DNA of 64,000 nt, from positions 1 through 64,000 of the forward strand of contig CACABO010000008.1 of NCBI GenBank assembly GCA_902530745.1, given 5' to 3'. The notes beneath the pieces are model-generated. The model did no database searches. It worked only from the letters and a program-made list of their open reading frames with translations, and was not told where the DNA came from. Positions 15,128-27,843 of the stretch are shown piece by piece; within the stretch, counting starts at the first letter, position 1, and every line of letters begins with the position of its first letter. The DNA comes from an uncultured Alphaproteobacteria bacterium (GTDB lineage Bacteria; Pseudomonadota; Alphaproteobacteria; HIMB59). Both the position numbers and the translations under genes were made by a program.

Positions 15128-15627
15128 TGCAATTATTTGCAGCTATAGATTTTGAAACAGCCACTAGTGAGAGAACATCGGCATGCGCTATTGGATATGT
15201 AATATTTAATAAAACTAAAATTATAAAAAAAGTCGCTCATTTAATAAGACCACCTAAACCTGAAGTTCATTTCACAGATATTCATGGTTTAACATGGGAT
15301 ATGTTAAAAAAAGCTAAAACATTTGATAAAGTGTGGCGACAAATTAAGAGCGAATTATCAGCTGTTGATTACTTTTTTGCACATAATGCACCTTTTGATC
15401 GATCTGTCCTGCACTCCTGTTGTTATTTTTATAACATTGAACTACCTAAACAGGAATTTAAAGATACTGTTGCAATTGCAAGAAAATATTGGGAATTTGA
15501 AAACAACAAACTAAACACAGTATGTAAAAATTTAAGAATTCCTTTAAATCATCACGATGCATTATCAGATGCCAAAGGATGTGCTTTGATAGCTATTGAG
15601 GCATTTAAAAAAGGTTATTTTATTTAA
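15127..15627 (+). CDS. DnaQ-like 3'-5' exonuclease (DEDDh)
   Basis: A 166-residue exonuclease-domain protein. The DEDDh residues are visible: DFETAT near the N-terminus (ExoI), HNAPFDRSVL (ExoII), and HHDALSDAKGCA with the histidine and final aspartate (ExoIII). It is a stand-alone domain like small DNA polymerase III epsilon paralogues, and is probably a proofreading or DNA/RNA trimming exonuclease. It is the last gene of the overlapping unit. Its 3' end overlaps the convergent MFS gene by 8 bp. Confidence 0.88.
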   Translation: MQLFAAIDFETATSERTSACAIGYVIFNKTKIIKKVAHLIRPPKPEVHFTDIHGLTWDMLKKAKTFDKVWRQIKSELSAVDYFFAHNAPFDRSVLHSCCYFYNIELPKQEFKDTVAIARKYWEFENNKLNTVCKNLRIPLNHHDALSDAKGCALIAIEAFKKGYFI

Positions 15628-16813
15628 TTTTATTAGCTATAAAGCTCATTGAAGAGAAAATAATTATTAAGGCAAGGCTCATATAAATTAAGGTGTTAAT
15701 AGAATTTGTCTTATCCAATATCAAACCGTATAAGAAAGGGGAGGCCGCTGAGGATAAAACACCAAAAAATGTTAAAAGAGCCCTTATTGCACCTAGGTTT
15801 TTGACTCCATACATTTCTGCCCACAAAGAATTAGACAAATTTTCAGTAAAGCCATTTGATAATCCAAGGCCTGCCATGTAAAGATATAACACAAATACAT
15901 GATTTGAAAATAACATCACAATAAATATTAAAGCCATGGGAATTAAGTGAAATGTGATTACACTCCTACCAGAAAATTTATCGACTAACAAACCAGAAAC
16001 TAAAGAACCACCAATTCCACAGATTGCATAAAAAATAAAACTTTGCGCAATATCTAGCATTGTCCAATTATTTAATTGCCCAATAAAAACTTGATGAAAT
16101 AAAAAACCAGTCACTGTAAATGACATTAATAATGTAAGGGGTAAATAAAGATAAAATTTAAGATCTTTTAAAACATCTCTTCTTCTCCAGGAAAATGAAT
16201 TTTGTATATCTTCATTCTCAAACCCAGTTTCACTTTGAAAATTTTTTTTATTTAATAGGTAGTAAAAAAATACCCCAAAAAATATTATTATAAATATAGA
16301 TGAACTAAACCAGGTAACTCTCCAGCCAAAAGTTAATATTAAAGTAACTACAACAAATGGATAAATCATCTCACCAAAAGAAAATCCAAATCCAGATATA
16401 GCTAATGCTTTTCCTCTATTAGCTTTAAAGTATCTTGCCACAGTTGTTCTAGAAGTGTGTCCCATGAGACCTTGTCCAAAAAGTCTTAAAAAATAAATTA
16501 CGAAAAAAAGAAGAATTACATTAAACACAATACTTGCAAAAAAACATGTTATTGAAAGACCTAATACAATAGCTAAAGTATATTTCTTGAGGGAGACTGT
16601 ATCTATAAGTTTACCAGCCCATATAATAGTTAACGCACTTAAAATTGTAGCTATTGAATACAGACTGCCAAATTGAGTATTACTTAAATTAAATGTTCCT
16701 CTAAAATCTTCACTAAAAAGGGAGATAAAAAATGTTTGTCCAAATCCTGATGCGAATGCTATTAAAAAGCCAAATATTAATAAATTTGAATTTTTATTTA
16801 TAAAATTAATCAA
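15620..16813 (-). CDS. MFS transporter
   Basis: A 397-residue major facilitator protein with about 12 hydrophobic segments in two halves. The characteristic MFS loop between TM2 and TM3 is visible as WAGKLIDTVSLKK, and its second-half counterpart as LVSGLLVDKFSGRSV. The overall style resembles monocarboxylate or oxalate/formate-type permeases, but the substrate is not determinable. It is divergent from the carboxymuconolactone decarboxylase-like gene across 62 bp. Confidence 0.85.
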   Translation of the reverse strand: MINFINKNSNLLIFGFLIAFASGFGQTFFISLFSEDFRGTFNLSNTQFGSLYSIATILSALTIIWAGKLIDTVSLKKYTLAIVLGLSITCFFASIVFNVILLFFVIYFLRLFGQGLMGHTSRTTVARYFKANRGKALAISGFGFSFGEMIYPFVVVTLILTFGWRVTWFSSSIFIIIFFGVFFYYLLNKKNFQSETGFENEDIQNSFSWRRRDVLKDLKFYLYLPLTLLMSFTVTGFLFHQVFIGQLNNWTMLDIAQSFIFYAICGIGGSLVSGLLVDKFSGRSVITFHLIPMALIFIVMLFSNHVFVLYLYMAGLGLSNGFTENLSNSLWAEMYGVKNLGAIRALLTFFGVLSSAASPFLYGLILDKTNSINTLIYMSLALIIIFSSMSFIANKIK

Positions 16814-16875: not shown

Positions 16876-17283
16876 GTGAGCACAATTAAAAGAACTGATG
16901 ATAATAATCATCCAATTATAAAGGAAGTCTATGAAGATATTAAACAATCAAGAAACACAACTTATATAGGTAATTTTTGGAAATATTTAGCATTCGACCC
17001 TCAATTACTAAAAAATGTTTGGAGTGATGTTAAAGATTTAATGGTTAAACAAACCATAATTCCTAATAAAACTAAAGAGATGATTTATATGGCAGTCTCT
17101 ATAACAAATAATTGCTCGTATTGCACACATTCACACACAGCTGCAGCAAAAAAACTTGGGATGACTGAAGACGAACATTCAGAATTTTTAAATATTGTAG
17201 CTCTTGCAGCAAAAACAAATCAACTGGTCAATAGTATACAAGTTCCAGTAGATGAAATATTTGATGAAGACATAGAAAAATAA
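16876..17283 (+). CDS. AhpD/carboxymuconolactone decarboxylase-family protein
   Basis: A 135-residue CMD-domain protein starting at GTG 16876, preceded by a purine-rich AAAGAAAGGG. The AhpD-type redox motif is NNCSYCTHSHTAAAKKLGM, with CxxC and the following histidine. This motif is typical of peroxidase-like alkylhydroperoxidase D relatives rather than true decarboxylases. It probably has a thiol-dependent redox role in the cytoplasm. A 33-codon membrane ORF follows 4 bp later. Confidence 0.85.
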   Translation: MSTIKRTDDNNHPIIKEVYEDIKQSRNTTYIGNFWKYLAFDPQLLKNVWSDVKDLMVKQTIIPNKTKEMIYMAVSITNNCSYCTHSHTAAAKKLGMTEDEHSEFLNIVALAAKTNQLVNSIQVPVDEIFDEDIEK

Positions 17284-17692: not shown

Positions 17693-17702
17693 ATTTTTAG
17701 TC
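17687..17702. terminator. Possible weak terminator hairpin between convergent genes
   Basis: GACTAAATTTTTAGTC is an inverted repeat (GACTAAA/TTTAGTC) spanning both convergent stop codons and followed on the plus strand by TAAATTTTT. It is AT-rich and short, so terminator function is only a suggestion. Confidence 0.35.
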
Positions 17703-18815
17703 TAAATTTTTAAAACCGTAGCCTGTTTTTTTTACTCTTGTCTTAAAATAATTCTTATTAAATTTGTTAATTGTAGGTTTTGTATTTATTTGCTTGGCAA
17801 TTTTAATACCAGCTTTTTTAAGAGAAGAGACTTTTGTAAAATTATTTGTGATAATATTGACTTTATTTACTTTTAATAACTTAAGTATCTTAGCGGCAAT
17901 ATTAAAATCTCTTTCATCATCTAAAAAACCTATGTTGTGATCAGCATCAATAGTATCCAAGCCTTTTGATTGAAGAGAATATGCCCTCATTTTATTTGCT
18001 AGTCCTATACCTCTCCCTTCTTGATCTAAATAAAGGATAATACCTCCTTTATTTTTAACCATATAGTTTAAAGAGTTATTTAATTGTTCTCCGCAATCAC
18101 ATTTTCTAGAGTGAAATATATCTCCAGTAAAACAAGCTGAGTGAATTCTAAGGTTTGTTGGTTGTTTTAAATTTTTTGGTTTAATTATGATCGCGATATG
18201 TCTTCTAGCACCAATATATGACTTAAAAATATTAAAAGTAGTAGATGCAACATTAGGTAAGGGCACATTTGCACTTGAAACTAATCTGATACTATTAGTT
18301 ATAAATTTATTCTGATTTTTTAACTCTTTATGGTTAAATCTTAATAGACCAAGTTGTAATATTAGATTATCAATATTTTTATAATATTTAGAATTAATTT
18401 TTTTAAATACAAGTGATGGTATTACCTTCGCATTTTTGGCTATATCTAAGCAGACATTATGGAAGTCTTTACTTTTGATATAAGGCTCATCTTTAAATAA
18501 TATTTTATTCTGATCAGATAAAGGGTTAATGAATAAACTTAATAAAGATTTATTTGATATTTTTTTATTTATTTTTAAATAAATATTTGTTGATACTTTA
18601 TTTTCAAATATTGATTTTGCTTTTTGTTTTGTGATTAAAAGATATTTGTCTTTTTGTAGGTATTGATTGAATTGATTTAGAATTTTATTGTCCGAATGTT
18701 CAATATTAAAGAACATCCAATAATTTTTATTTTCTTTGATAACTATTGGTCTTCCGGTTCTAAGCTCATTGATAGCCCTATCAATAAATGTGCCAAAATT
18801 TGATTTTAAACTCAT
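17697..18815 (-). CDS. ribA: GTP cyclohydrolase II with alphaproteobacterial N-terminal extension
   Basis: A 372-residue protein whose C-terminal half is GTP cyclohydrolase II. Zinc cysteines are C228, C239 and C241 (SACFTGDIFHSRKCDCGEQ), then DQEGRGIGLANKMRAYSLQ with the catalytic Tyr (Y279, equivalent to E. coli Y105) and DDERDF with the Arg (R302, equivalent to R128). It should open GTP to the diaminopyrimidine that starts riboflavin synthesis. The N-terminal about 170 residues (start FIDRAINELRTGRPIVI) look like the degenerate extension found on alphaproteobacterial RibA, not an active DHBP synthase. It is divergent from a RibD-type reductase over 41 bp and borders a pterin/riboflavin-like cluster. 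Confidence 0.9.
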   Translation of the reverse strand: MSLKSNFGTFIDRAINELRTGRPIVIKENKNYWMFFNIEHSDNKILNQFNQYLQKDKYLLITKQKAKSIFENKVSTNIYLKINKKISNKSLLSLFINPLSDQNKILFKDEPYIKSKDFHNVCLDIAKNAKVIPSLVFKKINSKYYKNIDNLILQLGLLRFNHKELKNQNKFITNSIRLVSSANVPLPNVASTTFNIFKSYIGARRHIAIIIKPKNLKQPTNLRIHSACFTGDIFHSRKCDCGEQLNNSLNYMVKNKGGIILYLDQEGRGIGLANKMRAYSLQSKGLDTIDADHNIGFLDDERDFNIAAKILKLLKVNKVNIITNNFTKVSSLKKAGIKIAKQINTKPTINKFNKNYFKTRVKKTGYGFKNLD

Positions 18816-18856
18816 AGACTATATATATACTCAATAGTACTTGATACAGATGAAAA

Positions 18857-19687
18857 ATGATAACAAAGCATAATATTTCTTCACTATTTGAATTTGTAAA
18901 AAAACAAAAAAAATCAAATATCTTAAGAATTGATTTAATTAACAAATCGTTTGTACTTAGTCAACATTCTAAAACCAATCATATTTTAATTGATAAAAAT
19001 GGTGTTAATTTTAATTGTAAGATTGAAAAAAAAATAAATGAAATAGCACAAATTTTGTTACCAATATTGATGATAAAAAAAAAATTCTATATCGGTCAAA
19101 TTGGGCAAAGCTTAGACGGTAAAATTGCACTTTTAAACGGTAATTCTCATTACATTAATGATAAAAATAGTATTTCATACCTTCATAGCCTTCGTTCAGT
19201 TTGTGATGCAGTTATTGTTGGTGTAAATACAATAAAAAAAGATAATCCCTTGCTAACTACAAGAGCAATTAATGGCTCAAATCCTCAGAGGATTATCATA
19301 GATCCGTCTCTAAAATTAACAAATAACTATAAAATATTTAAAGATGGTTTTTCAAATATCATATTTACACACTCTAATATTAAAAAGAATTTAAATAATT
19401 CAGAAATTTATAAATTACCTGAAAGAAATTTTACAAATCTTATATACAAACATATGAATAATTTAGGTTTTAAGTACGTATTAGTAGAAGGTGGTTCCAA
19501 AACTATATCTAAATTTCTTGAGAATAAATTATTAGACATTATGCAATTTATAATAGCACCAACAATTATTGGTTCTGGTATTAATTCTATAAATATTAAA
19601 CCTATAACAAATTTAAAAAAAGTTATTAGAACAAAAAATAAAATTTATAAATTTGGCGAAGAAATGATAGTAAGTTTAGAGTTTTAA
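18857..19687 (+). CDS. Stand-alone RibD-type pyrimidine reductase
   Basis: A 276-residue protein whose C-terminal about 215 residues are a RibD_C (dihydrofolate-reductase-like) domain: GQIGQSLDGKIAL, SVCDAVIVGVNTIKKDNPLLTTR, and LVEGGSKTISKFL are the usual substrate- and NADPH-binding motifs. The zinc deaminase domain of bacterial bifunctional RibD is absent, and no zinc-cysteine pattern is present in the N-terminal 75 residues. It should reduce a ribosylaminopyrimidine to the ribityl form, or an analogue, as archaeal-type reductases do. It is divergent from ribA and convergent with the methyltransferase (12-bp overlap). Confidence 0.87.
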   Translation: MITKHNISSLFEFVKKQKKSNILRIDLINKSFVLSQHSKTNHILIDKNGVNFNCKIEKKINEIAQILLPILMIKKKFYIGQIGQSLDGKIALLNGNSHYINDKNSISYLHSLRSVCDAVIVGVNTIKKDNPLLTTRAINGSNPQRIIIDPSLKLTNNYKIFKDGFSNIIFTHSNIKKNLNNSEIYKLPERNFTNLIYKHMNNLGFKYVLVEGGSKTISKFLENKLLDIMQFIIAPTIIGSGINSINIKPITNLKKVIRTKNKIYKFGEEMIVSLEF

Positions 19688-20464
19688 AGCTAAAAAATCT
19701 TTATTTCTTAGAAATAATTTTGATTGATTTTTTTTAATATTTTCCCTTCTAAAATCTAACCATCTATCTAATGATATCTTATTTTTTTCAAGTACATTTT
19801 CACAAAAATCTAAAAATATATTTTGAAATTTTTTATTCTTTGATACATCCCAACTCGAGTCAAAAACAAATGTTTTGTGTGACTTAGAAAACAATTTATT
19901 AATTATTTGACTACAGTTTTTACCAACTGCTTTTTGCCCAATACCTTTATCTGACTCCTGATCTTTATTAAATAGATTTAAAACGTATTGATCATCTTTA
20001 TGTTTTGGGTAAAATTTAAAAAATCCATCATAATTAATCGAAAAATATATAACTTTTGTATTTAGATTTTGTTTTTTAAATCCTAAATACCAATTTTTTG
20101 GCATTATATCTAAATACGCAGATCCTGTAATAATATCGTATTTTTCAAATTTAAAACTTTTTATATTTTTGATTAAATCAAATTTTTTATAATTTATATT
20201 TATAATTTTATTATTATTGTTTGTTTTTTTCTTAAATTCTTTAATTGACTCAAATGATATGTCTATCATATCCCATGATTGCCTTTTTTTAAGTTTAGGG
20301 TACAGATATCTATAGTTGGAACCTGTTCCACAACCTAAATCAGCGATAGACAATATTTTGTACTCTTGAAAATATTTATTTATTTTTTCTATAATTTTTT
20401 TATTTCTTGAAACTTTATCAATTTTCTCTCGAAGAAATAGCCAATCATTATTAAATTTATGCAT
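19676..20464 (-). CDS. Class I SAM-dependent methyltransferase of the pterin/riboflavin-like cluster
   Basis: A 262-residue Rossmann methyltransferase. Motif I is ADLGCGTGSNYRYL (about 40-53), the acidic residue after strand 2 is in DMIDISFES, and a region ITGSAYLDIMP corresponds to motif III/IV. The conserved-looking N-terminus NDWLFLREKIDKVSRN precedes the fold. The substrate is unknown. It is the last gene of a four-gene minus-strand unit and overlaps the glycosyltransferase by 8 bp, which suggests it modifies the same product. Confidence 0.82.
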   Translation of the reverse strand: MHKFNNDWLFLREKIDKVSRNKKIIEKINKYFQEYKILSIADLGCGTGSNYRYLYPKLKKRQSWDMIDISFESIKEFKKKTNNNNKIININYKKFDLIKNIKSFKFEKYDIITGSAYLDIMPKNWYLGFKKQNLNTKVIYFSINYDGFFKFYPKHKDDQYVLNLFNKDQESDKGIGQKAVGKNCSQIINKLFSKSHKTFVFDSSWDVSKNKKFQNIFLDFCENVLEKNKISLDRWLDFRRENIKKNQSKLFLRNKDFLALKL

Positions 20465-21500
20465 TTTTTATTATCTTGATAAAAAGATCCCCAGATTGTA
20501 TTGGTGTTAAAAATTTTCTCTTATTTTGTGATAATTTTTTCGATAAATCTGAATTAAATGCATTTTTAGTAATTAATTTTGATAAACTTTTTTCTTTGAA
20601 ATTATTTAAGTAGATAATTCCATCCCTTTTTAGAGTACTTATAATTGTTTTAGTTTTATATGTAATAATCATTTTTTTGAGTTGTAGGGCATTAGCAAGT
20701 GACATACCAAAACCTTCATATTTACTTACTGAGACATAGAAGTCACACTTAGAATATAGTTTTGATAATATATTAGTCGATACATTACTATGAAACTTAA
20801 CTTTTTTACTTAATCTATAATCACTTATAATTTTAAGTAATCTATTATAGTATTTACTCTCTCTAGTTATATCTCCTACAATATTTAATTTTATTTTATC
20901 CATGTATCTTAATTCGTTTAACAGATAATGATAATTTTTTCTCTCAATAATACTTCCTACAGATAGTAAATTTATATTTTTATCCCTTTTTAATTTATAT
21001 TTTTTTAATTTTTCTATTCCAGGCTCAACAACATGAATTTTTCGCTTATTAATTTTAAATTTTTCAAAAATTAGTTGTTTTGTATCACTTGAAGTGACAA
21101 TTATTTTTTTCGTTTTCTTATATAATTTTTTAGCGTTCTTAAGAAAAAATTGACTTTGATTACCATTAAATTCTAGATAAAGAGGGTGGTGTATAAGAGC
21201 TATTACTACAAATCTATCTAAAAAGTTTATTATACTATCAATACACTCAAAAACTAATCCATCAAAAATTAGTACTGCATTATCAGGTAATTTTTCTAAA
21301 GTTTTTTTTAGATTTTTTAAGTCATTTTCTTTAGGAAAGGGAAAGCTGTTAGCTAGTTTGATAGCATTTAAATTAAATTTAATTTTTTTTGCTCTTTTTA
21401 ATATATTTTTTTCATAAATGTAACCGCCTGTTTTGGTATTAATATCACCTGGATAAATAAAATAATAAGATTTATTGTGTATTACTGATCTCTTGTTCAT
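20457..21500 (-). CDS. GT4-type glycosyltransferase
   Basis: A 347-residue GT-B glycosyltransferase. The donor-binding C-terminal domain shows NLLSVGSIIERKNYHYL (about 180), KVKFHSNVSTNILSKLYSKCDFYVSVSKYEGFGMSLANAL in order. In the family's E-x7-E motif the first Glu (YEGFG) is present but the second is Asn. The gene overlaps the pterin-synthase-like gene by 29 bp and the methyltransferase by 8 bp. Few glycosyltransferases sit in pterin or flavin loci; cyanobacterial pterin glucosyltransferases are a precedent. Acceptor and sugar are unknown. Confidence 0.82.
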   Translation of the reverse strand: MNKRSVIHNKSYYFIYPGDINTKTGGYIYEKNILKRAKKIKFNLNAIKLANSFPFPKENDLKNLKKTLEKLPDNAVLIFDGLVFECIDSIINFLDRFVVIALIHHPLYLEFNGNQSQFFLKNAKKLYKKTKKIIVTSSDTKQLIFEKFKINKRKIHVVEPGIEKLKKYKLKRDKNINLLSVGSIIERKNYHYLLNELRYMDKIKLNIVGDITRESKYYNRLLKIISDYRLSKKVKFHSNVSTNILSKLYSKCDFYVSVSKYEGFGMSLANALQLKKMIITYKTKTIISTLKRDGIIYLNNFKEKSLSKLITKNAFNSDLSKKLSQNKRKFLTPIQSGDLFIKIIKNA

Positions 21501-21879
21501 AAGAAGCCCAAGCTACATTTGACTCAGTTAAAATAATTTTAATTTTATGCAACTTGTTAAAATCTTCTATGTAATCTTTTTGTAATTTAGTGCATATTCT
21601 ATCAAAAATATCTTTAGCAAGAAATTCCGTAGAGGTAATTATATTTTTAAATTCTTCAACTTCGTCTAAATTTTTATAACTATAAAATTTTAATACGTCA
21701 GAGAGAATTTCTGTTACAACTCCGAGATCCATAATAATGTTATATTTGTTAATCTCTTTTGCATAAAACTCAGCATCAACTATGTAGGTCGCTCCATGCA
21801 TATTCTGTGCTGGTCCAAAAACCTCACCCGGGAGAGAATGTGCAATTAAAATATTATTTCGAACAGTAATTGAATACAT
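21472..21879 (-). CDS. 6-pyruvoyl-tetrahydropterin synthase/QueD-like protein with altered active site
   Basis: A 135-residue T-fold protein related to PTPS/QueD. The N-terminal zinc region retains H14 (LIAHSLPG) and H28 (NMHGATYIVDAEF), but the usual HGH is HGA (H to A at 30), and the catalytic cysteine normally just before it is absent (GPAQNM). MDLGVVTEIL corresponds to the conserved strand/helix, and LTESNVAWASYE to the C-terminal Glu region. It probably binds a pterin-like ligand but is unlikely to perform the standard QueD or PTPS reaction unchanged. It is embedded in the minus-strand unit dehydrogenase-this-GT-MT. Confidence 0.82.
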   Translation of the reverse strand: MYSITVRNNILIAHSLPGEVFGPAQNMHGATYIVDAEFYAKEINKYNIIMDLGVVTEILSDVLKFYSYKNLDEVEEFKNIITSTEFLAKDIFDRICTKLQKDYIEDFNKLHKIKIILTESNVAWASYEQEISNTQ

Positions 21880-21880
21880 T

Positions 21881-22843
21881 TTAATACTTTATAGCATGCA
21901 TTATGCTTTCTGGATTATTTAATATTGAAATATAATCTTTCTCTAGATCCTTAAAGTCACTTTCAGTGTTTATTAATTTAAGAAGTTGGTTATTAGATAA
22001 AGCATTAATTGCTAAATTCAATCTTTTTTTATAATCATATTTTTTTGATAAATACTTTGGAATATTTGAAACTTGAGAACCAATAATTTTTAATCTCTTT
22101 GAGTGAAAATTACCTCCTAAATTTATTTGACCTTTTCTATTTCCATACCAACTAGCCTCAATAAATTTTCCCTCTAAATTCAATTTTTTTAGTGATTGGT
22201 TTAATACATCATAATTAGATGTTGTATTAATTATAACATCTAAATCTTTAATTTTTTTAAAATTTATAAATTTTAGTCCTAAAATATTAGCAAATTTCTT
22301 CTTTTTAATATTTATGTCAGTAATAAAGACATTTTTAAATTTTAGTAATTTATAATAGTAGGCAGTTAAAATACCAACAGAGCCCATCCCTATTATCAAT
22401 ATTTTGTTATTTAATTTTGCTTGAGTATCCCAAAAGATATTAATAGCTGTTTCCATATTTGCTGTTAGTAAATATTTTCGAATATCACCATTACCCTTTA
22501 AAATATTCACATTATTTATATCAATCTTAAATAGTGATTGATGAGGGTAAAGGCAGAATGTATTTTTATTTAAATATTTTTTTGGGCCTTCAACAATTTT
22601 ACCAATATTAATGTAACCGTATTTAATTGGAAAAGAAAAAGATCCCTCTTGAAAAGGAGATTTCATTATATCGAACTGATCTTTGCTAATATTACCAGAT
22701 GCTACTAATCTCTCAGTACCCTTACTAATTCCTGAATAAAGAGTTTTTACAAGAACAGTTTTAGAATTTTTTTTATAGCTAAGTATTTTTTTCTTAATAA
22801 TCGGTTTATTTTCATTTTTAAGCCATAGAGAATAAGTTTCCAT
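21881..22843 (-). CDS. Zinc-binding-type medium-chain dehydrogenase/reductase
   Basis: An MDR-superfamily oxidoreductase of about 320 residues. The N-terminal GroES-like part contains SGISKGTERLV and SPFQEGSFSFPIKYGYINIG. The Rossmann part has ILIIGMGSVGILTAYYYKL followed by an acidic residue in FITDINIKKKK. The start at 22843 (METYSLWL) is preferred over 22870, because it leaves 29 bp for divergent expression with the creatininase-like gene. I recall this MDR subfamily next to a PTPS-like gene in other alphaproteobacteria (memory, not checked). It is the first gene of the four-gene unit; the substrate is unknown. Confidence 0.82.
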   Translation of the reverse strand: METYSLWLKNENKPIIKKKILSYKKNSKTVLVKTLYSGISKGTERLVASGNISKDQFDIMKSPFQEGSFSFPIKYGYINIGKIVEGPKKYLNKNTFCLYPHQSLFKIDINNVNILKGNGDIRKYLLTANMETAINIFWDTQAKLNNKILIIGMGSVGILTAYYYKLLKFKNVFITDINIKKKKFANILGLKFINFKKIKDLDVIINTTSNYDVLNQSLKKLNLEGKFIEASWYGNRKGQINLGGNFHSKRLKIIGSQVSNIPKYLSKKYDYKKRLNLAINALSNNQLLKLINTESDFKDLEKDYISILNNPESIMHAIKY

Positions 22844-22872
22844 AATAATTATATAAATGTTAAATATCACTT

Positions 22873-23631
22873 ATGCTATCAAAGTTTTGGTCCGATTTAA
22901 CATCAGCAGATATTAGTAAATTAGGTAAAAATAAAATACTTATTCTTCCATTTTCATCTGTAGAACAACATGGAGAACACCTTCCATCAGGTACTGATAA
23001 ATTGATATTAGATGGAATTTTAAATACTTTTGTTAAAAAATATCCCAAACTTAATAAATATTTAATTCTACCAAACATCTCTATAGGTTCAGCGAGTGAG
23101 CATAATAGCTTCGAGGGCACTCTATCCTCGAAATCTACAAATTATATTGATTATATTATCAGCATAGTTGGTGAGTTATGTATTCGTAGATATAAAAAAT
23201 TTATCTTCTTAAATAGTCATGGCGGACAAATTAGTCACTTAGATATAGCTGCTAAAGAAATTAAAAGTAGATATAAAGCTGTCGATATTGTTAAGGCACA
23301 TTATTTTTTATTTAAAGGTTTTGAAAAAATTATTCCAAAAAAGGAATTACTTTATGGATATCATGGAGGTGAATTTGAAACATCAATAATGCTCCACCTT
23401 TATCCAGAATTGATAAAATTAAATAAAATTAAAAGAAACAAACTCTCATCTGACTTTAAATCTAAAAAAATAATTTCTTATGAAAGAACAATTAAAAGAG
23501 CTTGGAATACAAAAGATTTGTCCAAGACAGGTATAATTGGCAATCCTACAAAATCCTCTGCAGATAAAGGAAAAAGAATTCTAGATCTTACATCAAGAAC
23601 CTTAAAAAAAATAATTGATGAAATGAAGTAG
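22873..23631 (+). CDS. Creatininase-family amidohydrolase
   Basis: A 252-residue protein of the creatininase/ArfB/MftE superfamily. Metal ligands match by spacing: E31, H33 and D42 in VEQHGEHLPSGTD, a histidine in NSHGGQISH, and the glutamate in HGGEFETS. Family members hydrolyse creatinine (creatininase), the formamidopyrimidine intermediate of archaeal riboflavin/F420 synthesis (ArfB), or a peptide (MftE). Its location beside GTP cyclohydrolase II, RibD reductase and PTPS-like genes makes a pyrimidine or pterin amide substrate plausible. It is divergent from the dehydrogenase operon, and its stop is followed within a few bases by tRNA-Cys on the other strand. Confidence 0.85.
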   Translation: MLSKFWSDLTSADISKLGKNKILILPFSSVEQHGEHLPSGTDKLILDGILNTFVKKYPKLNKYLILPNISIGSASEHNSFEGTLSSKSTNYIDYIISIVGELCIRRYKKFIFLNSHGGQISHLDIAAKEIKSRYKAVDIVKAHYFLFKGFEKIIPKKELLYGYHGGEFETSIMLHLYPELIKLNKIKRNKLSSDFKSKKIISYERTIKRAWNTKDLSKTGIIGNPTKSSADKGKRILDLTSRTLKKIIDEMK

Positions 23632-23853: not shown

Positions 23854-25239
23854 ATGAAAACTAAAAATTATTTATCTGAAGCACAAAATTTTCTGAAGAG
23901 AAATACACAAGTAAAATCATTCGATATTGTAATGCATGATTGTAATGGTGTAGGTCGTGGAAAAATAATAAGAAGAAACGAGTTATTAAATTTGTATAAG
24001 TCAGGTAGGCAATTTCCTCTTTCATTACTTGGAATGGATATTACTGGTGAGGATACACCTGAAACAGGATTAATTTTAGAGCAAGGTGATGGTGACATAA
24101 AAGCTTGGCCTATACCATCATCTCTTAAGTTATTGCATAACAGCAAACCACCAAGAGGTGAATTATTCATGAACATGTATGATATTGAAGGTAATAAACT
24201 ATTAACTGACCCACGAAATGTTTTGGAAAATAAAATACAAGAATTAAAAAAAGATGGTATCTCTTGTTTTGGAGCATTTGAATTAGAATTTTTTCTAGTT
24301 TCAAATGAACTGGATGAGTATGGAAAACTTAAGCCAGCAAAATCTATAATTGGAAAAAAAGCTTCAATTAAAAAAACAGATGTTTATTCAGTTGATCACC
24401 TTCATGGTATGATGCCACTAATAGATGATATATATGAAGCCACAAAACTTGCAAAAGTAGATGCTGAAACTATCATTTCAGAATACGCACCTGGTCAATA
24501 TGAACTTACTCTTAAACATCAAAGCTCATTATTGAAAGCAGCTGATGATATTTTAAGATTAAAGAGAATTATTAGAGCACAAGCAAGAGCGCATGGTGTG
24601 ACAGCATGCTTTATGGCAAAACCGATGGAGAATATAACTGGTTCTGGTATGCACTTTCATATTTCATTGTATGACAAAAAAGGCAAAAATATTTTTGCTG
24701 AGAAGAATAAAGAAAAAATTAGTAAGAAACTTAATTATGCTCTTGGAGGGCTTTCAAAATATATGGGTGAGAGCATGTTAATATTTGCTCCAAATGCAAA
24801 TAGTTGGAGAAGATTTGTATTAGGCTCTTATGCTCCCACTAGACCCAATTGGGGTATAGATAATAGATCTGTGGCTTTTAGAATACCCACCAGCAACTCT
24901 CATAATAGAAGAATTGAACACAGAGTTTCTGGTGTGGATGCAAATCCATATTTAGTTGCATTAACAGTTGTTTCAGCAATTAAAAAAGGATTGACTAATA
25001 AAATAAATGCTGACAAACAGACTACTGGTAATTCATATTTAAAAAAATCATCTAGTAAGAATAAAATTCCAACAGATTGGAACTCTTCAATTAATTTATC
25101 TAAAAAATCATTATTCTTAAAAGAAACTTTAGGATCTGAACTCCATAAAGCTTTTATCGCTATAAAGGAAATGGAGTATAATAAAGTTGCAAGTGCTGTT
25201 ACTGAGTTGGATATTGAGTTATATTTAGACTCAATTTAA
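23854..25239 (+). CDS. Glutamine synthetase-family ligase (GlnT/PuuA-like)
   Basis: A 461-residue GS-superfamily ligase. The catalytic domain carries AFELEFFLVS, the GSGMHFHISLYD metal/ATP motif, FAPNANSWRRFVLGSYAPTRPNWG in order, and RIEHRVSGVDANPYL. The N-terminal part lacks the typical GSI-alpha features and the adenylylation-loop tyrosine context, so it is more like gamma-glutamylpolyamine or gamma-glutamylmethylamide synthetases than housekeeping GlnA. The likely reaction is ATP-dependent gamma-glutamylation of an amine for nitrogen or polyamine catabolism. The gene stands alone behind its own 148-bp promoter region. The exact amine is unknown. Confidence 0.83.
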   Translation: MKTKNYLSEAQNFLKRNTQVKSFDIVMHDCNGVGRGKIIRRNELLNLYKSGRQFPLSLLGMDITGEDTPETGLILEQGDGDIKAWPIPSSLKLLHNSKPPRGELFMNMYDIEGNKLLTDPRNVLENKIQELKKDGISCFGAFELEFFLVSNELDEYGKLKPAKSIIGKKASIKKTDVYSVDHLHGMMPLIDDIYEATKLAKVDAETIISEYAPGQYELTLKHQSSLLKAADDILRLKRIIRAQARAHGVTACFMAKPMENITGSGMHFHISLYDKKGKNIFAEKNKEKISKKLNYALGGLSKYMGESMLIFAPNANSWRRFVLGSYAPTRPNWGIDNRSVAFRIPTSNSHNRRIEHRVSGVDANPYLVALTVVSAIKKGLTNKINADKQTTGNSYLKKSSSKNKIPTDWNSSINLSKKSLFLKETLGSELHKAFIAIKEMEYNKVASAVTELDIELYLDSI

Positions 25240-25240
25240 C

Positions 25241-26389
25241 TTATGCTTTGAATAAATTTTCAGAATAATTTTTTATATTTTGTTCCCAAAAAACTTCTCT
25301 TTTTATTTTTTCAAAATCAGTATCAAATACACTAGACATGGCAGAAGCATATATTGATCTGGCATCAATAGTGCTGTTAAGATCTCTTCCTTCAAATAAA
25401 CTATTTTTTTTTAAACCTGGCCAATCAGTAAAAACTTGAGATTTTTTCAATAGTCCTCCTGCCATTAAAATAGCTGAACCATAACCATGTTCTGTTCCGT
25501 TTCCGCCATTTTGTTCTACTGTTCTTCCAAATTCTGTGAGCGTCAATATTAATGTGTTATTAAAGTCACTTCCCATACCAGTATGGAGGTTTTTAATAAT
25601 TAAATCTATATCATGAAGATTATCTGCATGTTCACCATTGTCCGTCCCTTGAGCTGTATGTGTATCAAAGCCCTCAATATCAAAAACAGCCACTTTTGGA
25701 CCAAGAGGATCTTTTAAAATTTTAGCTGTTCTTTTTGATAGGCTATCTAGAGATTCATCTCCACCTTGCATAGTAAGAGGTCTATTCATTATAACATTGT
25801 AAACCTCCTGAAGTTTGTCATGCTCAATTCCATCATAAGCTCTTGTTATTTTTTCAATAACCTCTCTTTTTGGAAGGTGCATCCAAGTAGGAAAATAATT
25901 GTTATTTCCCTCAACTCCTCTCAGTAAAAGTGGCATTGGTAAACTTAAGGCGAGACTTGAACCATATAGACCTGATGATTTCATTCCCCTTCCTAACCAA
26001 CCTGTTTTTTTGGTGTAAGCTTTTAAGGCACCTGTTTCCATTATATTTTGTCCATCAAAATGAGATCTTCCTGTGTAGGGTACATTTGTTGCATGAATAA
26101 CAGCTGCTAAATTTTGAGACCATAAATTATGAAGTGTTTTTAATTTAGGATGCAAAGAAAAATCTGAATTAAGTTTTAATTTATTGTTTAAAATTAAATC
26201 AGATCTATATTTGTTGATAAGGATGTCATTAACGGGTACAGCAGTTAAACCGTCCATTCCGCCTCTGAGACTTATAATTACAAGATTTTTTTTAGGATTT
26301 GAAATAGACCCATAAAGTGGGATATTAAAATTTGAAAAGAAAATAGTTGCTAAACTACCTTTTAAAAAACTTCTTCTAGTACAATTCAT
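25241..26389 (-). CDS. DUF1501 protein with twin-arginine signal
   Basis: A 382-residue DUF1501 protein. The N-terminus has a Tat signal (CTRRSFLKGSLATIFF), so it is probably exported folded via TatABC, whose genes are also in this window. The domain resembles alkaline-phosphatase/sulfatase-like folds: VIISLRGGMDGL near the start, HATNVPYTGRSHFDGQ, FDIEGFDTHTAQG and TLTEFGRTVEQNGGNGTEHG near the C-terminus carry potential metal ligands. The function is unknown. It overlaps the upstream DUF1800 gene by 4 bp, a pairing seen in many bacteria. Confidence 0.88.
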   Translation of the reverse strand: MNCTRRSFLKGSLATIFFSNFNIPLYGSISNPKKNLVIISLRGGMDGLTAVPVNDILINKYRSDLILNNKLKLNSDFSLHPKLKTLHNLWSQNLAAVIHATNVPYTGRSHFDGQNIMETGALKAYTKKTGWLGRGMKSSGLYGSSLALSLPMPLLLRGVEGNNNYFPTWMHLPKREVIEKITRAYDGIEHDKLQEVYNVIMNRPLTMQGGDESLDSLSKRTAKILKDPLGPKVAVFDIEGFDTHTAQGTDNGEHADNLHDIDLIIKNLHTGMGSDFNNTLILTLTEFGRTVEQNGGNGTEHGYGSAILMAGGLLKKSQVFTDWPGLKKNSLFEGRDLNSTIDARSIYASAMSSVFDTDFEKIKREVFWEQNIKNYSENLFKA

Positions 26390-27843
26390 ACTCTCATTAC
26401 CTCAGGACTATTTGCAAAAATAGCAAATCGATCAGCATAAAATACTGGATCTTTCATTAAATTTAGTAAATTTTCCGGTTGATCAAAATTCTTTTCAATT
26501 ACATTAAAAAAATAATCCTGATCATAGCTTACATTAGGTTTGGTGATGTCAGCAAATCTTCTAGCAGCCGCTAGTCTACGAATAATTAATTCAGGTGACA
26601 GCCATTCATCTTCAAGATCAATAAAACCATTAGGTTGTTTAGCTCGATAAATGGGATGACCAATTTCCCACAGTATATCCTTAACCAACCTATGACTTCT
26701 ACTAGGTCTAGATCCATTAAACTCAAAACCTTTGGGAAACAAATAAATATAATTTAGTCCTAACATCCTTGAGTTTTGTAAAAGCCACAATTCTGGCATT
26801 GAAAATTTTTGATAATTTGAACCATAATCAAATACTGCCTCCATAGTTGATTTGTGAACTTCAATTAAATTGCCATCATTTTGTTTCCATTTTTTAACAA
26901 TACTTGCAATCATTTCCTCTGTTGGTTCATCACAAATATAATGCTGGCATAGCTTTCTTGCTACATGCCTAATAGTAGCTGGGTGGTTAGCTAGATCTTT
27001 AATTACTATTCCTAACTCTTTTCCTTGATTAACAGTATTAAAATCTTTGATGTCGTAAATTTTTCCTAAAATTTTATATGGTCCTTGTTCATGATATTCA
27101 GGTTGAAATTTAATAGGACCTGCCTCTAATTTTTTATTATTCCATAAGTGTCGCCAACCTGTCATAACCTTTGCCATCTCGATTACATCTTTTTGAGAGT
27201 ATTTCCCATCAGGTGAGAGTGTATGCAGTTCTAGTAATTCTCTTGCATGATTTTCATTGAGACCTACTTTTTCATTATCACTATCTGAATTCTCCCTCAA
27301 ACCTTCTATTGAGTTAGGTCCAATATTCTCAGCGTTATCAAGATGATGAAGCATGCACCATGATGTAGTCACTGAATAAATTAAATCTTCAAAAGTATTT
27401 ACCATATTAGGTCGAATAATCTCTCGCTGATAAACACCTGTAGAAAAACTTGCTAAAAAATCCTTTTCACTAATCGCAAAAAAGTTACCCCAAAAATGCC
27501 ACATTCTCTCAAATGCTGGTGAGTTTGAAGCTAGGGCCGTAGAATGTCTCACAGATAACTCTAATGGCTCAAAAAATTTCTCTCCTGTAATTACTCTTAA
27601 ATTATCTTTTTCTTTTTCATAAGCTAGTCGGTCATTTTTATATTTTTCTCTTAAAACTTTACGGTCTTCATAAACCCATTTGCCATATCTGTCTTGTTGT
27701 TCTTCAAGATTAGGAAGTTTTTTTTCCCAAACAAATTTTGGAACAGTATCAAATTGTTGTTTAGCCCAATTTAAGGGATCTTCGTTTATTTTTTCATTGG
27801 GACTTAAACCAAAAGCAACTTTTCTGAAAAAGTTTTTTTTCAT
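26386..27843 (-). CDS. DUF1800 protein
   Basis: A 485-residue DUF1800 protein, the usual partner of DUF1501. Recognisable segments are RMWHFWGNFFAI, the NENHARELLELHTL motif, KVMTGWRHL, and HPATIRHVARKLCQHYI. No signal peptide is apparent, in contrast to the DUF1501 partner. The pair is common in marine and environmental bacteria but its biochemical role is not established. It lies directly downstream of the PanB-like gene with no spacer, suggesting one minus-strand transcript from about 29615 to 25241. Confidence 0.88.
   Translation of the reverse strand: MKKNFFRKVAFGLSPNEKINEDPLNWAKQQFDTVPKFVWEKKLPNLEEQQDRYGKWVYEDRKVLREKYKNDRLAYEKEKDNLRVITGEKFFEPLELSVRHSTALASNSPAFERMWHFWGNFFAISEKDFLASFSTGVYQREIIRPNMVNTFEDLIYSVTTSWCMLHHLDNAENIGPNSIEGLRENSDSDNEKVGLNENHARELLELHTLSPDGKYSQKDVIEMAKVMTGWRHLWNNKKLEAGPIKFQPEYHEQGPYKILGKIYDIKDFNTVNQGKELGIVIKDLANHPATIRHVARKLCQHYICDEPTEEMIASIVKKWKQNDGNLIEVHKSTMEAVFDYGSNYQKFSMPELWLLQNSRMLGLNYIYLFPKGFEFNGSRPSRSHRLVKDILWEIGHPIYRAKQPNGFIDLEDEWLSPELIIRRLAAARRFADITKPNVSYDQDYFFNVIEKNFDQPENLLNLMKDPVFYADRFAIFANSPEVMRV

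Follow-up and report, generated by a model that had tools for sequence, protein, structure and literature searches.

A seven-gene alphaproteobacterial cassette around a PTPS-IV protein, with a predicted role in making a GTP-derived pyrimidine or pteridine

The PTPS-IV subfamily of COG0720, marked by the signature FGPAQ, has been described as a cluster of 561 sequences whose genes neighbour PF00925 and PF01872 genes (AGeNNT, PMC5445326). The passages available from that source assign it no function and name no medium-chain dehydrogenase/reductase (MDR), family 4 glycosyltransferase (GT4), methyltransferase, creatininase or lipid-enzyme partner; they label PF00925 as GTP cyclohydrolase I/FolE2, whereas here it denotes GTP cyclohydrolase II (GCH II). 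In excerpts of another study the subfamily is ascribed to F420 on unpublished work (PMC5041015). Here we analyse a block of seven genes, at positions 17697 to 23631 of a 64,000-nt window (positions 1 to 64,000 of contig CACABO010000008.1, assembly GCA_902530745.1), which shares the FGPAQ signature and the RibA and RibD neighbours with the AGeNNT subfamily. On balance, we regard the block as a self-contained biosynthetic cassette that diverts GTP, via the GCH II product, towards a 2-amino-4-oxo-pyrimidine or pteridine bearing a sugar and a methyl group. A first-pass annotation had already proposed a glycosylated, methylated pterin, lumazine or pyrimidine-derived molecule; of that interpretation, the conserved unit, its separateness from the riboflavin operon and the fit of the enzymes to such a GTP-derived product stood, whereas the ordinary PTPS/QueD label did not.

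Several described systems resemble parts of the block. SCO6650 of Streptomyces (3d7j) is a PTPS-IV protein like that of the window. Many Streptomyces loci combine a CDP-alcohol phosphatidyltransferase, MDR, PTPS, glycosyltransferase, creatininase and a RibA in which a tyrosine is replaced by methionine; actinobacterial loci often add, besides the phosphatidyltransferase, a flippase-like gene and often lack RibD, whereas the window RibA keeps the tyrosine. In cyanobacteria, pterin glycosides are formed by a glycosyltransferase acting on a pterin, but there the start is GTP cyclohydrolase I. The formamidases BrbF and ArfB share the creatininase family (here by membership in PF02633) and the context of ring-opened GTP with the block, but in the rhizobial groups named in the excerpted text, BrbF adjoins MarR- and CobW-type genes and not this cluster (PMC9478397). 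Toxoflavin and pseudoiodinine are likewise proposed to derive from GTP via a GTP cyclohydrolase and RibD, with additional methyltransferases, but the seven psd genes listed in the excerpted text include no PTPS, MDR or glycosyltransferase (PMC9911603). Already in print are thus the PTPS-IV subfamily and two of its neighbours; apparently new are the whole operon, the MDR partner, the cross-domain context and the cassette behaviour, for none of which a description was found in searches of open-licence full texts.

Gene content and recurrence of the cassette

All seven open reading frames were found at the coordinates and in the Pfam families given by the first-pass annotation. The core is a minus-strand unit of four genes, encoding a BchC-like MDR dehydrogenase (21881 to 22870; ADH_zinc_N, PF00107, E value of 3e-4), the PTPS-IV protein of the PTPS family (21472 to 21879; PF01242, 9.6e-21), a GT4 glycosyltransferase (20457 to 21500; Glycos_transf_1, 1.3e-21) and an S-adenosylmethionine-dependent methyltransferase (19676 to 20464; Methyltransf_25, 1.5e-7). 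For the MDR, the listed GTG start (22870) is probably too early, an in-frame ATG at 22843 being the probable true start. Overlapping ends had been noted for the unit; the methyltransferase and glycosyltransferase genes do overlap by 8 bases and the glycosyltransferase and PTPS genes by 29, whereas PTPS and MDR are separated by a single base. The remaining members are a RibA-type GCH II (17697 to 18815, minus strand; PF00925, 9e-48), a reductase-only RibD transcribed divergently from RibA (18857 to 19687, plus strand; RibD_C, PF01872, 7e-29), whose gene overlaps that of the methyltransferase by 12 bases at the 3′ ends, and a creatininase-family amidohydrolase (22873 to 23631, plus strand; PF02633, 4.5e-53), a candidate formamidase.

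Similar gene sets had been expected to recur in other alphaproteobacteria, and a search of 289 genomes of this class bore this out. With a cut-off of E ≤ 1e-5, the PTPS search matched 37 genomes, or 36 after one (G106) with the canonical QueD-like CxxxHGH motif was set aside. The MDR, searched separately at E ≤ 1e-10, was found in 36 genomes, identical to the 36 with PTPS-IV (Fisher p of 9e-47, genomes being treated as independent and without correction for phylogeny); in one of them, G035, the two genes lie on different contigs. The neighbourhoods of 35 loci, leaving out G106 and the window's own genome, were mapped with phmmer, some losses being due to contig ends. The MDR was present at 34 of these loci, the glycosyltransferase at 33, the methyltransferase at 31, RibD at 27, RibA at 12 (one degenerate) and the creatininase at 6, and three loci had all seven window families. 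The order MDR, PTPS, glycosyltransferase, methyltransferase on one strand was kept at 30 of the 35, and the methyltransferase gene lay downstream on the same strand at 31. Further neighbours were a CDP-alcohol phosphatidyltransferase (10 loci), cytochrome b561 (8) and an FkbM methyltransferase (6).

Beyond the class, the PTPS alignment was run against named genomes and gave at least 595 pattern matches, at least 586 of them confirmed; the analysis used the best 80 of these, a set biased to high identity and to Streptomyces. These best 80 loci comprise 38 from Actinomycetota, 37 from Pseudomonadota (Alpha, Beta and Gamma), 4 from Bacteroidota and 1 from Gemmatimonadota. Specifically, 76 of them have the MDR (the exceptions being L096, L105, L108 and L123), 71 the glycosyltransferase, 62 the methyltransferase, 52 RibA, 51 the creatininase and 42 RibD, with all seven families at 23; a CDP-alcohol phosphatidyltransferase is found at 50, a flippase-like protein (LPG_synthase_TM) at 46 and cytochrome b561 at 4. 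The strict four-gene order was scored in only 47 of the 80. Partner families outside the seven were assigned from a Pfam scan of 10 hand-picked proteins. Annotated copies of varying completeness reside on plasmids of Peteryoungia, a member of the Rhodobacteraceae, Thiodictyon, Streptomyces, Microbacterium, Methylosinus (pOB3b1 of M. trichosporium OB3b) and Palleronia. A phosphoribosyl-AMP cyclohydrolase is also annotated near the Peteryoungia cluster (L033, 16259 to 16825).

Clusters of related composition occur on archaeal plasmids. That of Haloarcula strain GH36 encodes a CDP-alcohol phosphatidyltransferase, GTP cyclohydrolase IIa, MDR, PTPS and a methyltransferase, and that of H. sinaiiensis a creatininase, CDP-alcohol phosphatidyltransferase, MDR, PTPS, GT4 and a methyltransferase-like protein (L174 and L175). 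On a Natrarchaeobaculum plasmid, GTP cyclohydrolase IIa adjoins an MDR relative; no PTPS was found on that plasmid by phmmer. In a tree of the MDR (61 of 121 rows, many inner branches being weak), the copy of Aquiluna, a metagenome-assembled genome of the Actinomycetota, falls among Rhodobacteraceae, which suggests either transfer or misbinning. Unsupervised clustering of neighbouring reading frames picked up mostly ordinary ABC transporters and, in GC-rich genomes, antisense frames; as further partners of note it gave YceI-type proteins at 10 loci (e.g., L053, 6454 to 7083) and, labelled by reading, inositol-monophosphatase-like proteins at 9.

The window's genus (f1) and a sister family (f2) share the relative order and orientation of all seven genes but differ in the flanks. 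In the genus, the block is bordered on one side by two plus-strand genes, encoding a major facilitator superfamily (MFS) transporter and an AhpD-like protein, and on the other by a glutamine-synthetase-like gene. These flanks enclose the block in G305, G306 and G259 and are joined without it in G030 (on one contig of a 99% complete genome), G325 and G314. At this single site the block is thus either there in full or missing, which, like the shared distribution of PTPS-IV and MDR, exceeds what chance would give. The MFS transporter (15620 to 16813), the AhpD/CMD gene (16876 to 17283) and the glutamine-synthetase-like gene (23854 to 25239) were therefore rejected as members, because they flank the empty site in cassette-less relatives. 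Just past the last of these, the window has adjacent minus-strand DUF1501 and DUF1800 genes (25241 to 27843).

Active-site residues of the encoded proteins

The alignment profile of the window PTPS matched 3d7j, deposited as "Uncharacterized protein SCO6650," at 3.8e-62; the paper on this structure reportedly describes no zinc and a pterin-like pocket. Two alignments were inspected, A1, from which L055 was left out, and A2, comprising the window protein and 39 of the best 80 named loci. FGPA is invariant in both, and the following Q is conserved in at least 90% of A1 and in all 40 rows of A2, in which H28-G-A-T and E119 are invariant as well. In a count of 126 rows, including two divergent archaeal and several near-identical ones, H14, G22 and H28 are found in 126, P23 and E119 in 125, and A30 and T31 in 124. 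E119 is presumably the ring anchor, as in other T-fold enzymes. At the site of the QueD motif CxxxHGH the window protein reads FGPAQNMHGATY: the cysteine is gone, the second histidine of HGH is alanine in PTPS-IV, and only H28 of the pair remains. Likewise, HGA in place of HGH departs from the PTPS-II and PTPS-III motifs (CxxxxxHGH and ExxHGH), and the QueD model TIGR03367 gave 41 bits against a cut-off of 89. By the published motif definitions, as given in the excerpts at hand (PMC5041015, PMC5445326), and with GCH II and RibD_C genes both inside the block, the protein belongs to PTPS-IV. An ordinary QueD or biopterin-type PTPS was thus rejected, and the "PTPS/QueD-like" label held for the family but not for QueD: this is a subfamily with an altered active site, for which ordinary QueD/PTPS chemistry is therefore not to be assumed.

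The MDR matches known models weakly. Its ADH_zinc_N match (21.2 bits) is under the Pfam cut-off of 31.8, the best NCBIfam model, BchC (TIGR01202), gave 51 bits against a cut-off of 291, and no solved relative was found by sequence. Conserved columns are SxxSxGTE, YGY and GxGxxG; the usual catalytic-zinc motif was not seen in the window protein. In the GT4, H104 is found in all 111 rows, K188 in 110 and E262 in 109. Among proteins of known structure, the window RibD aligns to RibD and to reductases of the archaeal type, and residues that it shares with them are conserved. R113 and D129 are present in 75 of 75 rows and R136 and E211 in 74, residues that we take to contact the RibD_C substrate; with no N-terminal deaminase domain, the window protein is not a bifunctional RibD.

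The window RibA aligns to the GCH II structure 2bz0 at 1.4e-40 and has an extra N-terminal region of about 170 residues, the protein being PRK08815-like over residues 11 to 366, below the cut-off. It retains the cysteines C228, C239 and C241 and the tyrosine of the RAY motif, which we take to be the zinc ligands and the characteristic tyrosine of GCH II. Among the RibA rows, with a degenerate match at L067 not counted, 35 have this tyrosine and 31 do not (25 Met, 5 His and 1 Gln), the latter all from Actinomycetota. A creatininase is encoded at the locus of all 31 rows without tyrosine and of 21 of the 35 with it, and 16 of these 21 are from the window's own genus and its sister family. The tyrosine-to-methionine RibA of S. 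coelicolor, SCO6655, reportedly yields a formylated intermediate; its gene presumably adjoins that of SCO6650. The association of the tyrosine-less RibA with the creatininase would fit a formamidase role. The best solved match of the window creatininase is 3lub (1.3e-13), and E31, H33, D42, H116 and E169 are conserved columns. BrbF, annotated as a creatininase-family protein, deformylates a ring-opened GTP intermediate, whereas two more distant homologues failed to complement, according to the excerpts of that study (PMC9478397).

Candidate pathway and alternative readings

From the gene content, conservation, co-occurrence and conserved residues observed here, we infer the following route for the proposed cassette, including its substrates, step order and product. 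RibA would open GTP to 2,5-diamino-6-(5-phosphoribosylamino)-4(3H)-pyrimidinone, and the creatininase would strip formate where RibA leaves it on, the window version possibly acting as a backup or in a later amide cleavage. The reductase-only RibD would convert the ribosyl to a ribityl group ahead of any deamination, in the manner of fungal and archaeal riboflavin synthesis, where reduction precedes deamination; since it has no deaminase, the 2-amino group would be kept. PTPS-IV, whose fold and conserved glutamate would suit a 2-amino-4-oxo ring, would bind that ring through the glutamate and cyclise or rearrange it together with the MDR. Since BchC acts by oxidising a ring-borne hydroxyethyl group, the BchC-like MDR may oxidise a side-chain alcohol. 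The GT4 would then add a sugar and, after it, the methyltransferase a methyl group. Where the cluster has an entry enzyme, GCH II or an archaeal counterpart appears to be the recurrent one (ribA at the 12 class and 52 named loci counted above, GTP cyclohydrolase IIa on one Haloarcula plasmid).

Several observations weigh against this route or its generality. RibA was not found at 23 of the 35 class loci and RibD at 8; such genomes could draw on their housekeeping enzymes, or the two proteins may be dispensable to the pathway there. Five of the 115 loci, some of them contig ends, gave no MDR match. Fourteen of the 35 RibA rows with tyrosine have no creatininase in the locus, and since the window RibA keeps its tyrosine, deformylation alone does not explain its creatininase; the link between tyrosine and creatininase comes from one phylum and may reflect few evolutionary events. 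The haloarchaeal PTPS keeps an HxH pair and has no FGPAQ, and is therefore an analogue in context that is not assigned to PTPS-IV. Moreover, PTPS-IV occurs without the other cluster genes at two Streptomyces loci (L105 and L123) and on a plasmid of S. anthocyanicus (L177), which suggests a possible second role for the subfamily. On the latter plasmid, its neighbours encode cupins and a MEKHLA-domain protein.

Narrower than the favoured explanation, and possible but unlikely in our estimate, is a pterin detour round GTP cyclohydrolase I: RibD would reduce the ribosyl chain, the MDR would re-oxidise C2′, and PTPS-IV would close the ring between N5 and C2′ to give a dihydroneopterin-type compound, which would then be glycosylated and methylated. 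The scheme is chemically neat and would give each core enzyme a natural job, and PTPS-IV has the PTPS fold and the probable ring-anchoring glutamate but has lost the Cys/His chemistry. A precedent is Chlamydia, which lacks FolE and supplies its pterin with RibA and TrpF. Neither FolE nor FolE2 was detected in the window's genome (G000), in five more cluster-bearing genomes of the genus or in G161 of the sister family.

The same search left FolE undetected in all eight genus and sister-family genomes covered (G000, G030, G259, G292, G305, G306, G308 and G161) and FolE2 in all 12 genomes covered; HPPK (FolK) was found in 11 of these 12, missing only in the cassette-less G030. Against the detour stand the FolE genes of the cassette-bearing genomes G015 and G028, the lack of a detected FolE in cassette-less G030 as well, and a candidate folate route of the lineage's own. 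Specifically, folP-folB-folK lies against a convergent PRAI/TrpF-like gene in G000, G259, G335, G344, G348 and G161 (L190, L191, L192, L193, L167 and L189). This gene is divergent in sequence, with Pfam PRAI scores of 30 bits in G000 and 23 in G335 at a cut-off of 22.7. By analogy, RibA with the TrpF-like protein is a likely candidate for a route to folate pterin in marine alphaproteobacteria. The arrangement occurs with and without the cassette, which is therefore not required for it, and a cassette that supplies folate in place of FolE was rejected, since G335, G344 and G348 have folK without PTPS-IV (FolE was not searched in those three). In G000 the folate operon (L190, 8721 to 13498; C4:54500-74400) is followed by pab-like aminotransferase IV, GATase and chorismate-binding genes.

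Rather unlikely, in our view, is a lipid-linked redox or signalling headgroup, in which a GTP-derived glycoside is joined to lipid, moved across the membrane and used with cytochrome b561 and YceI. The CDP-alcohol phosphatidyltransferase (at the 10 class and 50 named loci and in both Haloarcula clusters), the flippase-like protein (46 named loci), cytochrome b561 (8 class and 4 named loci) and the YceI-type genes (10 loci) speak for it and suggest that many lineages use the product at a membrane; YceI-type proteins and cytochrome b561 may be partners in periplasmic electron transfer. The window block itself has none of these genes, however, G000 has four CDP-alcohol phosphatidyltransferase matches with weak similarity, at most, to the cluster type, and the flippase-like protein was found at none of the 35 class loci. 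Decidedly improbable as a whole is a combined scheme, a third pterin route free of GTP cyclohydrolase I (opening by GCH II, reduction by RibD and re-oxidation by the MDR as equivalent of the Amadori shift of GTP cyclohydrolase I, and closure by a PTPS fold lacking the usual Cys/His chemistry). Its product would be glycosylated, methylated and, in haloarchaea as in many other lineages, joined to lipid to act as a redox carrier of the membrane.

Riboflavin supply and significance

It is very unlikely that the block is a second riboflavin set (RibA, RibD and a BrbF-like formamidase) whose neighbours are there by chance, or that it supplies a step of F420 synthesis. The other riboflavin set for which the first-pass annotation suggested looking is present in G000 (1.28 Mb, 27 contigs, about 90% complete) away from the block, as the housekeeping operon nrdR-ribD-ribE-ribBA-ribH on contig C1 (by Pfam, the names of ribE and ribH being confirmed). 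Consequently, a plain riboflavin operon was rejected for the block, whose seven proteins include neither RibH nor RibE by Pfam. The three RibD_C matches in G000 are the window protein, the housekeeping RibD, which has an N-terminal deaminase domain, and a 181-residue frame on contig C15; the window's PTPS is the only member of its family there. Conservation of the block's neighbours across phyla also argues against chance, and glycosyltransferases and methyltransferases are not known to be F420 enzymes.

In favour of a riboflavin link, one of the two PF00925 matches in G000 is the window RibA and the other belongs to the ribBA gene (L076, 9754 to 10827), whose RibA half has no zinc-cysteine motifs, reading RVHPVQGFDD where the window RibA reads RIHSACFTGD. 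With the zinc cysteines lost from RibBA, the window RibA remains as the sole intact GCH II found in G000, and it therefore probably also serves riboflavin there. The earlier caveat that ribA and ribD of the block might be the only riboflavin genes, with the four-gene unit linked to them in this genome alone, thus held in part: no other intact GCH II was found, but a separate operon exists and the unit is conserved elsewhere.

Relatives show a similar distribution. Five genomes of the genus that are at least 92% complete (G259, G292, G305, G306 and G308) have only the cassette RibA and a RibBA-type match, both kinds of RibA occur in G312, and G324 (92% complete) has the RibBA-type match only; cassette-less G030 has a separate RibA of 349 residues with no cassette families around it. 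In the sister family, the cassette RibA (about 388 residues) is additional to a separate RibA of about 198 residues; G335, G336, G338 and G348 have neither cassette RibA nor PTPS-IV. The simplest reading, drawn from incomplete assemblies, is that the cassette RibA took over riboflavin supply in the genus. The genus genomes with no PTPS-IV match (G030, G301, G303, G307, G314 and G325; L161 to L166) carry another kind of RibA, divergent at its N-terminal region and with no cassette families nearby. In G161, the gene for the RibA of about 198 residues directly follows a phosphoribosyl-AMP cyclohydrolase gene (L168, 9229 to 10292).

An antimicrobial of the toxoflavin/pseudoiodinine kind, made from the same RibA and RibD intermediates, would match the GTP cyclohydrolase, RibD and methyltransferases among the pseudoiodinine genes and the patchy, cassette-like occurrence of the block, but is highly improbable given that the seven proteins include no WD-40 or sulphatase-modifying-factor protein, both needed for pseudoiodinine, that PsdG is described as deaminase-like in the excerpted text (PMC9911603) whereas the window RibD has no deaminase domain, and that small genomes keep the block.

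For PTPS-IV, a subfamily for which no published function was found, the survey supplies one fixed partner, the MDR, present in every carrier among the 289 genomes at the thresholds used. Loci with both genes occur in four bacterial phyla, with a glycosyltransferase and a methyltransferase at most of them. This defines a pathway together with its likely starting metabolite, and it provides cultured hosts for tracing the product. In the window's genus, the cassette RibA seems to be the only intact GCH II, which would link vitamin synthesis to an accessory cassette. Should the product prove to be a new carrier of the pterin or flavin type, a widespread metabolite, made even by small-genome bacteria of the ocean, would so far have gone unrecognised.

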